Part shown: in pieces, positions 16,473-25,491 of the stretch
How positions within the stretch are numbered: position 1 is the stretch's first letter
How the letters are laid out: every line of letters begins with the position of its first letter
Assembly (NCBI RefSeq): GCF_003946885.1
Contig: NZ_RWKQ01000037.1
Location: 1-47,988 of the forward strand
Source: Specibacter cremeus
GTDB taxonomy: Bacteria; Actinomycetota; Actinomycetes; Actinomycetales; Micrococcaceae
Direction: 5' to 3'
DNA length: 47,988 bases
The notes under the pieces: generated by a model
The model's database searches: none
What the model saw: only the letters and a program-made list of their open reading frames with translations
Told to the model about the DNA's origin: nothing
Position numbers and translations under genes: made by a program

Positions 16473-16757
16473 GTGTGTGTCGTGATTGTCCGTGGCGAGG
16501 TCCGCAACGCGGAAGCGCTTGGCCGCATGCTTGCGCAAGGCCGGATGTTGGAGGGGCTCACACAGCGGCAACTGGCAGAGCAGCTTGGCATCACACAGAA
16601 GTATGTGTGGGAGGTAGAACAGGGGAAGCCCGGAATCTTCACTGACCGCCTGTTTCAGATCCTGCGTACAACCGGCGTAAAGCTGTACGCGGAGCTGGAG
16701 GCGGACCGCGCGCGGCAACCCGCCGAGAACGAGTCGGAAGAATCAGCCAATGGTTAG
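16473..16757 (+). CDS. hipB: HipB-like antitoxin / HTH repressor
   Basis: This 94-residue protein carries an HTH_3 domain at about residues 16-70: LGRMLAQGRMLEGLTQRQLAEQLGITQKYVWEVEQGK. A short acidic tail rich in Glu and Ser follows. It lies just upstream of hipA and overlaps it by 8 nt, the standard hipBA layout in which HipB binds DNA and neutralises the HipA kinase. The GTG start is preceded by GAAAGG; a second GTG at 16482 is also possible. Paired palindromes at 16392-16439 are probable binding sites. Confidence 0.88.
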   Translation: MCVVIVRGEVRNAEALGRMLAQGRMLEGLTQRQLAEQLGITQKYVWEVEQGKPGIFTDRLFQILRTTGVKLYAELEADRARQPAENESEESANG

Positions 16758-17994
16758 GTTGCGGGTCGAGCTCTACGGGCACTTGATCGGGTGGTTGACC
16801 GGCACGGGCTCGCGGACCTTTGACTTCGAAACGGACCGTGCGGCGTTTGAGCACTATGAACTGGGCAGTACCGTCCTGTCCGAATCCGTTCCCTTGGAAT
16901 TGCGGCCGGTCAGGGCCAAGGCGGGCCGACGTCGCAACTACTTCGCTGAGCTCCTGCCGGAGGGTCGCAATCTGGCCAATCTGGCCCGGCAAGCCGGCAC
17001 ACGCGAGGGCGATGTATTGGGACTTCTCACCCACTACGGTCGTGACGTTGCCGGCGCGGTGCAGATCCATGACCCGGAACAGCCAGGCGAACCTCGAACA
17101 CCGCGGGCAACTCCGATTTCGGATGCCGGAATCGCCGAGCTGTTACGCGATACGGCCGCGTCCCCGTTGGGCAATGAACGTTTGTTCGGAAAGACGTCCC
17201 TGGCCGGGGTCCAGGAAAAGATCGTCCTGGCCAGGATCGACGGCGCTTGGCACCGCGCCTTGGACGGCTTCCCCTCAACTCACATATTGAAGCCTGTTTC
17301 CCGGGATTATCCGACCATCATTTTCGACGAGGAATACGGGGCACGTGCTGCCCGGCGACTTGGCCTGGTCGAGACGCGGAGCTGGTTGGAGGATTTTTCC
17401 GGACGGCCGGCGCTGGTCATCGAACGGTACGACAGGTCCCCGGCCGCACCGCTCGGTCGGATCCACCAAGAGGACATGAGCCAAGCCTTGGGGGCAGGAG
17501 GGGATGAGAAGTACCAGGAGTATGGCGGCAAGGTCAGCTTTCAGCGGGTCGCCGGGCTACTCCGGAAGAACGGCATGGCGGAGTCCACAGATCGACTGTT
17601 CCGCCAAATGGTTTTGTCGGTCGCCCTGGGGAACCTCGACATGCATACCAAGAACCTGGGACTCCTGCATTTCCCCGACACGACGACCACGCTGGCGCCG
17701 GCCTATGACATGGTTCCCATGCGGCACTTCCGCAACGATGGCCGGATGGCGCTTGCGGTCAACAGCGTCTACGCACACCAGATGATAACTCGCGACGACC
17801 TCATCGCCGAAGGCCAATCGTGGGGGCTGAACCATGTGGCGGCGAAAGTCGACGAGGCGTTGAACCTCATTGCGATGGTCGTATCCGACGAGGCGCCCGA
17901 CCCACGCGCTCACGACGGGCTACAAGCCGACATCCTTGGTTTCGCGCGGAATCTGCTGGCTGGAAAGCCGACCGGCGACCTGAGCTCCCAGTGA
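16750..17994 (+). CDS. hipA: HipA-type Ser/Thr kinase toxin
   Basis: This 414-residue protein has both HipA domains. The N-terminal couple domain contains LLPEGRNLANLARQAG. The kinase core shows the flexible loop TSLAGVQEKIVLA, the ATP-lysine segment THILKP, RYDR, HQEDMSQALG, the catalytic loop GNLDMHTKNLGLL (Asp297, Asn302) and the metal-binding LAPAYDMVPM. All key residues are present, so the kinase should be active. E. coli HipA phosphorylates glutamyl-tRNA synthetase and causes dormancy; other HipA proteins use other targets, so the substrate here is open. It is coupled to hipB by an 8-nt overlap. Dispersed repeats follow downstream. Confidence 0.93.
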   Translation: MVRLRVELYGHLIGWLTGTGSRTFDFETDRAAFEHYELGSTVLSESVPLELRPVRAKAGRRRNYFAELLPEGRNLANLARQAGTREGDVLGLLTHYGRDVAGAVQIHDPEQPGEPRTPRATPISDAGIAELLRDTAASPLGNERLFGKTSLAGVQEKIVLARIDGAWHRALDGFPSTHILKPVSRDYPTIIFDEEYGARAARRLGLVETRSWLEDFSGRPALVIERYDRSPAAPLGRIHQEDMSQALGAGGDEKYQEYGGKVSFQRVAGLLRKNGMAESTDRLFRQMVLSVALGNLDMHTKNLGLLHFPDTTTTLAPAYDMVPMRHFRNDGRMALAVNSVYAHQMITRDDLIAEGQSWGLNHVAAKVDEALNLIAMVVSDEAPDPRAHDGLQADILGFARNLLAGKPTGDLSSQ

Positions 17995-20255: not shown

Positions 20256-20402
20256 CTATAGAAGATTACGCATCGCGTCCGGCCAGATCCACACGGCAGC
20301 CTGCACGGAGTCGGGCCAAATCCAGACCTTGGCGAACATGCCAACGAGGAGTACGCCGGCCACGAGACCAAACAGACACAGGGACAGGGCGAGCTTTTTC
20401 AT
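20256..20402 (-). CDS. Small secreted peptide with duplicated VWIWPD motif (candidate pheromone precursor)
   Basis: This 48-residue ORF starts at ATG 20402, with ribosome site AAGGTGG on the minus strand (20407-20413), 4 nt before the start. The product opens MKKLALSLCLFGLVAGVLLV, a textbook signal peptide core. The rest holds VWIWPD twice, at residues 26-31 and 37-42, 11 residues apart, and ends AMRNLL. The two copies differ at three codon third positions and at no amino acid, which points to protein-level selection. VQA at 33-35 could be a signal-peptidase site releasing a 13-residue Trp-rich tail. The gene is divergent from an HTH-TPR regulator (20543). This matches the arrangement of RRNPP peptide pheromones. 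The role is inferred; export alone would also be consistent with a membrane microprotein. Confidence 0.75.
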   Translation of the reverse strand: MKKLALSLCLFGLVAGVLLVGMFAKVWIWPDSVQAAVWIWPDAMRNLL

Positions 20403-20438
20403 GCAACCACCTTAGATGAGTGAGGAGTCCACAAGCGC

Positions 20439-20474
20439 TTGTTGGCCTGTTGACAACAATTGTAAAGTTATACT
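20439..20474. promoter_or_regulatory. Divergent promoter/operator region of peptide gene and HTH-TPR regulator
   Basis: The 140-bp gap contains nested palindromes: TTGTTG-N9-CAACAA (20439-20459), TGTTGACAACA (20449-20459) and ACAATTGT (20456-20463). TTGACA (20450-20455) and TATACT (20469-20474) are good boxes for the rightward gene, but their 13-bp spacing is too short for one standard promoter; a repressor or activator may be needed. On the other strand TTGTCA overlaps the same palindrome. These are seen directly; binding by the HTH-TPR protein is inferred. Confidence 0.5.
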
Positions 20475-20542
20475 TGGCGGAAGTGTCAAGGGGATCCGAC
20501 CTTCGACCGATCATGACGGTGTTCGACAAAGGACGTGGCACA

Positions 20543-21817
20543 GTGGGAAACAGCTTCGGCGACAGGCTTCGGCACGAGCGGCTGGCCCGCAGCCTGACGC
20601 AGGCGGAACTGGGCGGCCAGCTGTACTCGGCCAGCTATATCTCGCTGCTCGAGAACGGCCGCAGGGAGCCGACCGTGGATGTCATCAAGCAGCTGGCCAA
20701 GCAGTTGCAGCTCGCCCCGCACTCGATCGAGGAATGGGCCCTGCCGATCTCGCCGGAGGAGACCCAATACCTGCTCGCGTCGCTCTACGCACGCCAGGCC
20801 TGGGACACGCGCGACTACCTGGCCGCCCAGCGGTACGCCGCCGACGCCGCCCGGAAGGCCTCCGACAACCGCGACCCGGTGTCCTGGTGGAACATGGTGT
20901 ACCTGCAGGCCAATGCCCTGGTGAAGAGCGGCGCCTACGCCGAATGCATCGAGGTGCTCGGGGCCCTGCTGGCGCACCCCCTCTCCACCGAGAGCGCGGG
21001 CCTGTCGGTCCGGGCGCGCCAGGTCCTTTCCACGGCCTTGATGGGCGAGGGCCGGCTGCCCGACGCCATCCGCGAGGCCACAATCGCCGTCGAGATGGGC
21101 GCCGGGAACCCGGACGAGTTCGACGCGTACACGACGGCGCTGCGCACCCTGATCGGCGCCCTGGCCGAGTCGGGGAAACTGGAGGAGGCCTGGCAGCACT
21201 GCCTGCGGCTGGCCGACGCCGTGACAAAGTCGACGCCGGCGCAGCTGGCCGGTGAAATCCACTGGGTGATCGGCAACGTGGCGTTCATGCGCCACGACGT
21301 GGCCGCCGGGCTGACGCACCATGCCCAGGCCGGCAACCTGCTCTCGCCCGCCACCGACCTGGCCCAGTGGGCGCATTTCAACAAGGCGACGGCCTGGGTG
21401 CGGCTGACCGCCGGCATCGTCGAGCCGGCCACGCTCGAGGCCATCGAACGGTGCGAGCTGGCGCAATCCGTGATCGGCGCCACCATCGCCGACCAGCTGG
21501 AGGTGAAGCTGCTGCGCGCCCGCTGGTACTACCTCAACGGCGCCCTGGACGACGCCCTCGCGCTATTGGAGGAAATCGGCGGGCAGCAGGAGCACCTGGC
21601 CAGCAACATCGCCGGCGACGCGGCGCTGCTGCTGGGCAAGACGTACAAGGCCCGCGGCCGGCTGGAGGAGGCCATGGACGCGTTCACCGCGGCGAGGGAG
21701 CACTTCACGACGGCGGGCGCCACGGACCGTGTGGCACTGGCCCTGGACAACATCCTGGAACTGCGCGCCTCCGGCCTCTCGCGAAGCCACGGCAGCGCAC
21801 CCGGCACGCCCGCCTAG
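20543..21817 (+). CDS. HTH-TPR transcription regulator (RRNPP-like)
   Basis: The protein has 424 residues from the chosen GTG. Residues about 4-62 form an XRE-type HTH: FGDRLRHERLARSLTQAELGG, then YISLLENGRREPTVDVIKQLAKQL. The rest is alpha-helical TPR-like repeats, for example WWNMVYLQANALVKSGAYAECIEVL, TALMGEGRLPDAIREA, IGALAESGKLEEAWQHC, ALLLGKTYKARGRLEEAMDAFTAA. This is the architecture of Rgg/PlcR/NprR-type regulators that bind secreted oligopeptides in the TPR groove. GTG 20543 was chosen because AAAGGA lies 9 nt before it and the HTH begins there; an upstream ATG at 20420 would lie inside the promoter palindromes. It is divergent from the VWIWPD peptide gene, its likely ligand source. 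Confidence 0.85.
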   Translation: MGNSFGDRLRHERLARSLTQAELGGQLYSASYISLLENGRREPTVDVIKQLAKQLQLAPHSIEEWALPISPEETQYLLASLYARQAWDTRDYLAAQRYAADAARKASDNRDPVSWWNMVYLQANALVKSGAYAECIEVLGALLAHPLSTESAGLSVRARQVLSTALMGEGRLPDAIREATIAVEMGAGNPDEFDAYTTALRTLIGALAESGKLEEAWQHCLRLADAVTKSTPAQLAGEIHWVIGNVAFMRHDVAAGLTHHAQAGNLLSPATDLAQWAHFNKATAWVRLTAGIVEPATLEAIERCELAQSVIGATIADQLEVKLLRARWYYLNGALDDALALLEEIGGQQEHLASNIAGDAALLLGKTYKARGRLEEAMDAFTAAREHFTTAGATDRVALALDNILELRASGLSRSHGSAPGTPA

Positions 21818-21874: not shown

Positions 21875-22888
21875 CTACACGAAGTGGCGCCCGGTCAACC
21901 GCTCGTACGCCTCGACATAGCGGGCCCGGGTCCGCGCGACGACATCCGCGGGCAGCGCCGGGGCCGGTGCGTTGGATGCCCGGTCCCACCCGGAGGCGGG
22001 ACCGGCCAGCCAGTCCCGTACGTACTGCTTGTCGAAGCTGGCCTGGGCGTGCCCCGGCGCCCACAGCGTCGCGTCCCAGAACCGGGACGAATCGGGCGTG
22101 AGGACCTCGTCGCCGAGCGTGATCACGCCCTCGGGGTCCACGCCGAACTCCACCTTCGTGTCGGCCAGGATGATGCCGCGCTCACGGGCGATCTGCTCGG
22201 CCCGCGCGTACACCTCGAGCGTCAACGCGCGCAGCTGCTCCGCCGGCGTCTGGCCGATCGTGTCGGCCATCGCCGCGAACGTGATGTTCTCGTCATGCTC
22301 GCCCACCTCAGCCTTCGCCGACGGGGTGAAGATGGCCTCGCCGAGCCGGGAGCCGTCCTCCAGCCCGTCCGGCAACGGCAGGCCGCACACCGTCCTGGAC
22401 TGCCGGTACTCGGCGAGCCCGGACCCGGTCAGGTAGCCGCGGGCGATGCACTCGATGGGGAACATGTCGAGCCGCCGGCACACCATGGCGCGGCCGGCGA
22501 CGGCGGCCGGGACACCGTCCTCGACCGTCGTGGCGACCACGTGGTTGGCCACGTGCAGCTGGTCGAACCACCACAGGCTCAGCTGGGTCAGGATGCGGCC
22601 CTTGTCCGGGATCTCGCTGGCGAGGATCTGGTCGAAGGCGCTGATACGGTCGCTGGCCACGACCAGCACCACGTCCTCGCGCCCGGCGAACGGGGTCACC
22701 GAGGTCTCCGGGGTCTCGACAGGCTCGACCACCGAACCGCTGATCGAGCCCGTCGAGACCACCGAACCGCTGGTCGAGCCCGTCGAGACCACCGAACCGC
22801 TGGTCGAGACCACCGGAACATACAAATCCCGGACCTTGCCGGAGTAGACGTGCTGCCAGCCGGGCAGTTCCTGGGCGGTGGGGGCCAC
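21875..22888 (-). CDS. purC: SAICAR synthetase PurC with a repeat-derived insert
   Basis: It joins CAIR and aspartate to SAICAR in purine synthesis. Conserved blocks are present: YSGKVRDLY at the ATP-binding N-terminus, VVASDRISAFDQIL, IPDKGRILTQLSLWWF, ECIARGYLTGSGLAEY, VEFGVDPEGVITLGDEVLTPDSSRFWD and YEAYERLTG-like end. The length of 337 is some 35-40 above the usual ~300. The extra residues, about 25-64, are low-complexity Ser/Gly/Val/Thr (GSVVSTGSTS-type decapeptides) sitting between strands that normally join in a short loop. They are encoded by the dispersed repeat at 22704-22812, in frame. The rest of the enzyme is complete, so activity is probably retained. The start lies 2 nt after the purD stop, so both form one operon. 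Confidence 0.95.
   Translation of the reverse strand: MAPTAQELPGWQHVYSGKVRDLYVPVVSTSGSVVSTGSTSGSVVSTGSISGSVVEPVETPETSVTPFAGREDVVLVVASDRISAFDQILASEIPDKGRILTQLSLWWFDQLHVANHVVATTVEDGVPAAVAGRAMVCRRLDMFPIECIARGYLTGSGLAEYRQSRTVCGLPLPDGLEDGSRLGEAIFTPSAKAEVGEHDENITFAAMADTIGQTPAEQLRALTLEVYARAEQIARERGIILADTKVEFGVDPEGVITLGDEVLTPDSSRFWDATLWAPGHAQASFDKQYVRDWLAGPASGWDRASNAPAPALPADVVARTRARYVEAYERLTGRHFV
22704..22812. repeat. Dispersed repeat expanded in frame inside purC, cluster B
   Basis: A ~30-bp unit (GAGCCCGTCGAGACCACCGA followed by ACCGCTGGTC) occurs in about three head-to-tail copies with a partial copy, GTCTCGACAGGCTCGACCACCG, at the left. The same words form the intergenic clusters elsewhere in the window. 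30 bp is ten codons, so copy-number change keeps the purC frame. Confidence 0.9.
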
Positions 22889-25331: not shown

Positions 25332-25491
25332 CCGGGTCTTGACAAGCTCGACCACCGGTTCGGTGATTGAGCCCGTCGAAATCACCCCGGGTCTCGACAA
25401 GCTCGACCACCGGTTCGGTGATTGAGCCTGTCGAAATCACCCCGGGTCTCGACAAGCTCGACCACCGAATAGGTTCGACCACCGAATAGCG
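25332..25491. repeat. Dispersed repeat, cluster C (55-bp period)
   Basis: Copies begin with GGGTCTYGACAAGCTCGACC at 25334, 25389 and 25444, an exact 55-bp period. Each full unit holds two opposed half-sites: TCTCGACAAGCTCGACCACCG and GGTGATTGAGCCTGTCGAAA. The third unit is shortened and ends with two CGACCACCGAATAG copies. It fills most of the gap between the asparaginase and sterol-carrier-like genes. Confidence 0.9.

Follow-up and report, generated by a model that had tools for sequence, protein, structure and literature searches.

The question raised by this locus is whether a 48-codon ORF and the HTH-TPR gene divergent from it form a two-gene, RRNPP-like peptide-pheromone system in Actinomycetota. 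We conclude that they likely do; secretion, binding and signalling are inferred. The whole stretch of DNA that was analysed (47,988 nucleotides), which comes from a soil bacterium related to Arthrobacter, is referred to below as the window. The two genes have the following features, with the evidence in brackets.

20256 to 20402, minus strand: 48-residue precursor, MKKLALSLCLFGLVAGVLLVGMFAKVWIWPDSVQAAVWIWPDAMRNLL (sequence, genome-wide hexamer search, codon comparison)
20310 to 20327, minus strand: first VWIWPD copy, GTCTGGATTTGGCCCGAC (degenerate hexamer search)
20277 to 20294, minus strand: second VWIWPD copy, GTGTGGATCTGGCCGGAC (degenerate hexamer search, codon comparison)
20407 to 20413, minus strand: AAGGTGG, the peptide gene's ribosome site, separated from the ATG by 4 nt (sequence)
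20543 to 21817, plus strand: HTH-TPR receptor/regulator, 424 residues, GTG start (Pfam-type domain matches, AlphaFold2, fold search)
20555 to 20737, plus strand: HTH_31 domain, residues 5-65 (E 1.6e-11)

The precursor combines a Sec-type signal sequence with two VWIWPD copies. The signal sequence was called with a hydrophobicity rule rather than with SignalP, and export itself is inferred. When the 4.31-Mb genome was searched with degenerate DNA for VWIWPD, two matches were found, both within the 48-residue ORF, and the reversed control pattern gave no match in the same genome. The two copies differ at 3 of their 6 codons, with three synonymous and no non-synonymous changes; in their flanks, 13 of 14 residue pairs differ, the sole match being an Ala five residues before WP. 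Seven residues follow the last WP. The candidate ligands of interest for the receptor are VWIWPD, AVWIWPDAMRNLL and GNWPDPM. An earlier note, made from the sequence alone, had claimed a 48-residue ORF with a good ribosome site, two hexamer copies with only synonymous differences and a divergent HTH-TPR gene (confirmed by HTH_31 and TPR matches), and these three claims held. Its signal peptide is supported by the hydrophobicity rule only.

The N terminus of the receptor is an XRE-type HTH, matched above cut-off by both HTH_31 and HTH_3 (E 9.9e-9). Among the TPR models, TPR_14 alone passed its curated cut-off, the others remaining below theirs. No second homologue was found in the window's genome at E 0.001. 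An AlphaFold2 model built with 54 homologues (mean pLDDT 92.3, pTM 0.78) shows the HTH, then paired helices from residue 71 to 416. The receptor meets the RRNPP(A) criterion of an N-terminal XRE-type HTH, which applies to all members but Rap, and, as far as the fold predicted by the model goes, that of a TPR superhelix of about 5-9 repeats. In a profile search of the PDB, PlcR came second (2qfc, E 4.3e-11, positions 4-207), outranked by a designed repeat protein. This match lies partly in the HTH, and ComR HTH chains were weaker; no chain named NprR, Rap or AimR was present among the best 60 of 68 profile matches. In a Foldseek search of the PDB (best 50 of 104 rows at E 0.001), the list was headed by TPR proteins, eukaryotic ones (LGN) and others, the PlcR-PapR-DNA complex (3u3w) ranked 3, NprR (5dbk) 32, RapF 34 and PrgX 49; the TM-score to PlcR was modest (TMq 0.39). 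Among known regulators the receptor is thus most like PlcR, by profile and by fold.

Alignment of peptide-bearing receptors, including a related branch that has TPRs and no HTH (TPR-only), revealed 32 columns conserved across both kinds. Twelve polar or aromatic residues are invariant (W217, W241, N245, H260, D272, W276, F279, N280, R287, T297, E305 and W328). W241/N245 and W276/N280 are 35 residues apart, in corresponding positions of consecutive A helices. In known RRNPP structures, the backbone of the peptide is held by Asn residues in such positions. The two pairs may therefore lead to the binding site; they are not a test of it, and there are no binding data.

To establish how general the pairing is, 197 genomes from 32 genera of the family were searched, and matches were obtained in 148 genomes, many of them to the HTH alone. 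The receptor set comprised 30 loci from this search, 59 more that were fetched (scores of about 213 bits and higher; all weaker hits, and at least one stronger, were omitted) and 80 named loci, the best 80 of 290 candidates. Removal of identical receptors and of one duplicate contig (L146, the same contig as L011; 148 to 147) left 147 distinct receptors. A precursor had to be 28-160 residues long, with positive charge at the N terminus, then a hydrophobic stretch, and with a WP after residue 20, and to start within 350 nt on the divergent strand. This filter found a precursor for 108 receptors (89 of 127 with an HTH, 19 of 20 TPR-only), at 70-241 nt from the receptor (median 132). Inspection of the 39 misses added 11 precursors, accepted by eye: ten leaderless ones and one that exceeds the length limit and has eight repeats. 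A divergent short ORF of the xxWPx type is thus present at 119 of the 147 receptors. By source, this was 69 of 91 receptors (60 of 73 genomes) in the family sample and 50 of 56 further named loci. The pairing was seen in 15 of 15 genera with fetched receptors, the window's genus being represented there by the window alone. Of the 28 receptors without a recognised peptide, 16 come from the window's own clade (orphans). The RRNPP(A) criterion of an adjacent short propeptide gene is met in the window and at these 119 receptors, export again being inferred. Both the gene pair and its association across the family are shown. The nearest peptide-bearing relative is Arthrobacter sp. 35W (L133), with 69% receptor identity and three GIWPD copies; three GNWPD copies are found in L011 and eight copies, in frame, in L121.

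A first alternative is that the HTH-TPR gene is an ordinary one and has a short ORF next to it by chance. All that speaks for this is that the ORF is small. As a control, we applied the same filter to 575 kb of DNA flanking these loci, which yielded 17 ORFs; four of these were precursors belonging to a receptor nearby. The remaining 13 predict about 0.65 matches in the divergent position per 147 receptors; 108 were observed. The counts are not independent, because similarity was the basis for choosing the receptors, many of which are closely related. This family-wide association far above the control rate, the codon pattern and the location of both genome-wide VWIWPD matches inside the 48-residue ORF make the chance explanation very unlikely.

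Several loci of the set had peculiarities. L097 and L103 carry two receptor-peptide pairs in tandem, with unlike peptides (GNWPG and DDWPH; GNWPD and DNWPN). At L122 (G009:C12, about 297.5 kb) there is an ORF with four IGNWPDPM copies, without a signal sequence by eye, and no receptor was present in the 4.1-kb stretch retrieved; the same genome also carries a usual pair. L150 comes from a record labelled Sporosarcina, its receptor being Arthrobacter-like, and the record of L146 is labelled Acidobacteria, yet its contig was placed in the window's family.

The most frequent motif in the filtered set (L146 included) was GNWPD (231 copies), followed by GDWPH (20), GWWPN (8), GNWPN (6) and GIWPD (6); rarer forms include GSWPF and GLWPY, and the window's own form is WIWPD. 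Trp and Pro are constant in xxWPx, but WP was also the search criterion. In the same set, precursors had one to eight copies (18 had a single one), mostly spaced by 10-14 residues, and in 83 of 108 the last WP was followed by at most three residues. The ten leaderless ORFs have 16-32 residues from the ATG and no signal sequence by the hydrophobicity rule; they end at, or at most two residues past, the motif (GDWPD, GNWPD, GDWPHAA, GDWPHAD, VNWPF).

Comparison of 193 adjacent copy pairs from 91 precursors showed 331 synonymous versus 9 non-synonymous codon differences in the (V/I)GNWPD-type hexamer ending in the D of WPD. The corresponding numbers were 86 versus 359 for the three codons before it and 108 versus 213 for the four codons after it. 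The pairs are not independent, the hexamer span was chosen after seeing the table, and the Trp codon is uninformative; with a span fixed beforehand (two codons on each side of the Trp), there were 246 synonymous and 8 non-synonymous differences, and the flanks had 279 and 573. Purifying selection on the hexamer is strong. The earlier note had proposed to check whether a short ORF with a W-x-W motif always accompanies the regulator. The ORF does so mostly (119 of 147), not always, and W-x-W failed as a family rule: the family motif is xxWPx, and the W-x-W of the window is unusual. Non-synonymous drift of the motif had been named as a refuting result. The motif does change between clades (VWIWPD, GIWPD, GNWPD, GDWPH, GWWPN); within precursors the differences are almost all synonymous.

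The intergenic stretch contains three further elements:

20461 to 20489, minus strand: predicted promoter of the peptide gene, TTGACA-17-TTTACA, ending 58 nt before the ATG (loose pattern scan)
20447 to 20466, plus strand: conserved box CTGTTGACAACAATTGTAAA, a proposed operator overlapping the predicted -10 (alignments, genome search; no binding data)
20450 to 20489, no strand: inverted repeat TTGACA / TGTCAA, arms 20450-20455 and 20484-20489, 28 nt apart (repeat search)

The nested palindromes claimed for this region are real but short: there are six 6-bp inverted repeats in the 140 bp, counted without a shuffled control. Of the 89 HTH loci whose precursor has a signal peptide, 79 carried the loose promoter form, where shuffles predict 0.16; it was absent from all 16 orphan loci, from the 11 other HTH loci that lack a peptide and from the 11 whose precursor is leaderless or over-long. 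A stricter generic scan, in which the -10 had to have A as its second and T as its last base, detected no promoter. The box core, TTGTTGACA-(2-3 nt)-CATTGTAAAAT or a near form, was present at 71 of the 89 loci with signal-peptide precursors and absent from all 16 orphans and all 22 other HTH loci; a remnant such as TTGACAACATTTGT was detected in three orphans (L004, L005 and L135). Both patterns were written after seeing the alignment, and the counts cover HTH loci, not TPR-only loci. Conservation of promoter and box is shown. This layout belongs to part of the family only, since the 11 leaderless or over-long loci have a peptide and neither pattern. The full box had one match within three mismatches in the window's genome and one in each of six relatives (6/6). 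Because it matched only its own promoter in 7 of 7 genomes, no regulon targets were found.

In the reading that we favour, the precursor would be exported (through Sec, in the window's case) and processed extracellularly into a short peptide around VWIWPD. This peptide would re-enter the cell and occupy the groove of the TPR superhelix, and the bound peptide would alter the action of the HTH protein at the shared divergent promoter. As the HTH protein would act at that promoter, we propose that the peptide gene responds to its own product. We lean slightly towards the receptor repressing the peptide gene and the peptide relieving this repression, given that the predicted -10 of that gene is overlapped by the box; there are no expression data. 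Export, processing, uptake, binding, DNA binding, the sign of the feedback and the output are all inferred. The RRNPP-type pheromone circuit proposed earlier is supported by the family pairing, the purifying selection and the PlcR match, signalling itself being inferred.

A second alternative is that the precursor is a secreted effector (antimicrobial or RiPP-like, with several cores) and the HTH-TPR protein only its local regulator. Multi-copy cores behind a leader are also known in RiPP precursors, and the only box found is that of the own promoter. Against this, no modification enzyme or peptide transporter was present among 13 scanned proteins (12 neighbours; not a full survey), and 128 of 169 loci have a purC homologue. 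Two observations do not fit a mere local regulator: the leaderless ORFs of 16-32 residues, in which the motif is C-terminal, and the pairing of peptides with HTH-less receptors (19 of 20). We consider the effector explanation unlikely.

The peptide-less receptors of the window's genus raise another objection. The receptor was found in 23 of 23 species examined, but clustered GIWPD/WIWPD codons were present at it only in the window and in G947, whose precursor is that of Arthrobacter sp. 35W. In 21 of 23 species the receptor therefore stands without such a peptide, and no WP-type ORF was found within 520 nt upstream of it in any of these 21 (10 + 11 inspected). The eleven species inspected later are within L292-L302; L303 repeats G024. 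Promoter and box patterns were absent from 16 of 16 orphan receptors and from 12 of 12 loci L292-L303; the orphan sets overlap, some named loci being the same species. We also looked for a displaced peptide. No G(N/I)WP(D/N) codon cluster was found in 10 orphan genomes, and in 10 genomes the WP ORFs within about 5-12 kb of the receptor were stray single ones, none of them repeated. A displaced peptide that carries a different motif remains possible. The aligned orphan receptors (16 of 16) keep all 12 polar or aromatic invariants, and all 16 have Ser in place of the otherwise invariant A304. In the tree, the window branches beside the orphan clade and 35W outside, so that a single loss after the window had branched off accounts for the pattern. 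Orphan receptors may sense foreign peptides or act without a peptide. Seven paralogues from the genus Sinomonas also lack a peptide, and three of the seven have Lys for N245.

A third alternative would thus be that the pair is real but decaying in the window's lineage, the genus having become peptide-independent and VWIWPD being a drifting remnant. In its favour, the receptor is accompanied by the peptide in just 2 of the genus's 23 species examined, and the window's motif departs from GNWPD at two positions and is present in only two copies. Against it, promoter and box are intact in the window, its two copies differ only synonymously, and the nearest peptide-bearing relative (L133) has three GIWPD copies. 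Decay appears unlikely. Absence of the small ORF beside orthologues, which the earlier note would have taken as a refutation, is partly met (21 of 23 species of the genus). Since the pair is retained in the wider family, our preferred reading remains a functional pair, with loss in one clade and signal types that have diverged.

The pair was compared with known systems. PlcR-PapR of the Bacillus cereus group likewise combines an HTH-TPR receptor with a neighbouring propeptide gene, and is the best RRNPP match by profile and fold; it differs by its phylum and by its shorter receptor (280-293 residues in PlcR PDB chains versus 424), and the window's family has the xxWPx motif, mostly in several copies. 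In Bacillales systems the peptide gene is downstream of the receptor (PMC9765709), whereas it is divergent in the window. NprR is an HTH-TPR receptor of a size similar to that of the window's receptor. It resembles the window's system by its architecture and by its repeated propeptides, which are usual for NprR-NprX (17 of 17 in the set of PMC9765709); unlike PlcR, it was a fold match only, being absent from the best 60 of 68 profile matches. The very short leaderless precursors of ten relatives recall the streptococcal Rgg-SHP and ComR-XIP systems, and several Rgg-shp pairs are divergently arranged, as in the window. The window's precursor does not fit the Rgg-SHP criterion of a very short leaderless precursor, having a signal-type N terminus and two copies, and propeptide repeats are not observed for Rgg (0/658) or ComR (0/394) (PMC9765709). 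By analogy of mechanism, we regard the window's receptor as a separate branch that would work like PlcR, NprR, Rgg and Rap and is a member of none.

RRNPP systems are placed in Firmicutes, with repeated propeptides reported there (PMC9765709, PMC10075063, PMC4748050, PMC11343458). Intracellular TPR peptide receptors are treated in Firmicutes only in PMC9765709 and PMC10075063, one of which describes small molecules as the typical signals of Actinobacteria. The review PMC4748050 includes TPR proteins in the bioinformatic quorum-sensing hits that it gives for some actinobacterial genera, and discusses cyclic or modified peptides and butyrolactones; its Arthrobacter entries are AAA, LuxR-like and REC proteins, and its relevant passages name no pair of TPR receptor and peptide in actinobacteria. 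We found no actinobacterial RRNPP system in the open-access literature (preprints and most subscription journals were outside the scope), in agreement with the earlier statement that no characterised case with this peptide was known in Micrococcaceae. The GNWPDP motif gave no match there either, and the NWPD matches that were inspected, part of the total, were unrelated. Within the literature searched, this is an RRNPP-like peptide-signalling pair new to its phylum, its mechanism being assigned by analogy.

The HTH-less clade comprises 19 receptors with peptides (tree support 0.98), mostly of 342-384 residues. Although classed as TPR-only, L085 looks like a truncated copy that lies outside this clade; it was excluded from the neighbourhood counts. 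A GGDEF-EAL homologue was present within the fetched stretch at 13 of 17 TPR-only loci, and in L107 (1983-4609) the GGDEF-EAL and receptor genes overlap by 4 nt. A GAF-HisKA-HATPase kinase gene was found at 6 of 17 loci and a chitinase-like GH18/CBM5/12 gene at 4 of 17. The proximity of GGDEF-EAL genes suggests, as a possibility, a direct link from a peptide signal to c-di-GMP.

Like Rap-Phr, this branch has receptors without HTH that come with their own (WP) peptides (19 of 20) and, at 6 of 17 loci, a nearby kinase gene. Rap proteins are defined by an N-terminal three-helix bundle acting on response regulators. The TPR-only model (pLDDT 93.5) has a disordered start followed by TPR-like helix pairs, without a separate N-terminal bundle, and its best fold match was LGN. 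No Rap appeared in the best 50 fold-search rows or in the profile search of the TPR-only receptor. Membership of Rap is therefore not supported, and the likeness is limited to the absence of an HTH.

Outside the family, 13 of 396 genomes of a phylum sample matched the receptor profile at E 1e-15 or better, and 30 of 396 genomes of an order sample at 1e-20, 22 of these from the window's family; at most four candidates were scored per genome. Of 18 loci outside the family (L215-L225 and L245-L251), seven had a nearby signal-type ORF bearing WP: GGSWPT repeats in L245 and L246, DTWPA in L247, GNWPFFDD in L218, PTWPHC in L219, GYPWPK in L220 and AAKWPWG in L222. Six more had a signal-type ORF without WP. 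These peptide ORFs are single cases without a control. The distant matches L215, L216, L217, L221 and L225 were set aside, as they had no convincing peptide. No mobile versions were found in the phages searched, and the plasmids searched gave only four weak Streptomyces/Kitasatospora matches. L248-L251, from other families, have HTH-TPR genes near signal-type ORFs with GCC- or CC-type tails, the GCC-type ones (L249-L251) being on the same strand as the receptor.

A bolder reading is that Actinomycetota have their own old and diversified peptide-pheromone world. It would comprise xxWPx signals, HTH-TPR receptors and HTH-less ones tied to c-di-GMP enzymes, three kinds of precursor (Sec single-copy, Sec with up to eight copies, leaderless) and other signal types elsewhere (GGSWPT repeats, GCC-type tails), as well as a 21-species clade that kept an intact receptor, dropped its own signal and may listen to its neighbours. 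Taken jointly, these statements seem to us as likely to be wrong as right. Independently of this bolder reading, a conserved system whose signal sequences can be read in no fewer than 15 genera of a single actinobacterial family would provide a testable peptide language, with signal sequence, receptor groove and operator all nameable from the genome, and the orphan-receptor clade makes eavesdropping directly testable.

Elsewhere in the window, a HipA-type gene (Couple_hipA, HipA_C) is located at 16750-17994, upstream of a DUF6541 gene. Repeats of the GGTCTCGACAAGCTCGACCACCG type are found at 22709-22793 and 25332-25474, in and near coding sequence, one set being inside a purC-like ORF, near its N terminus.
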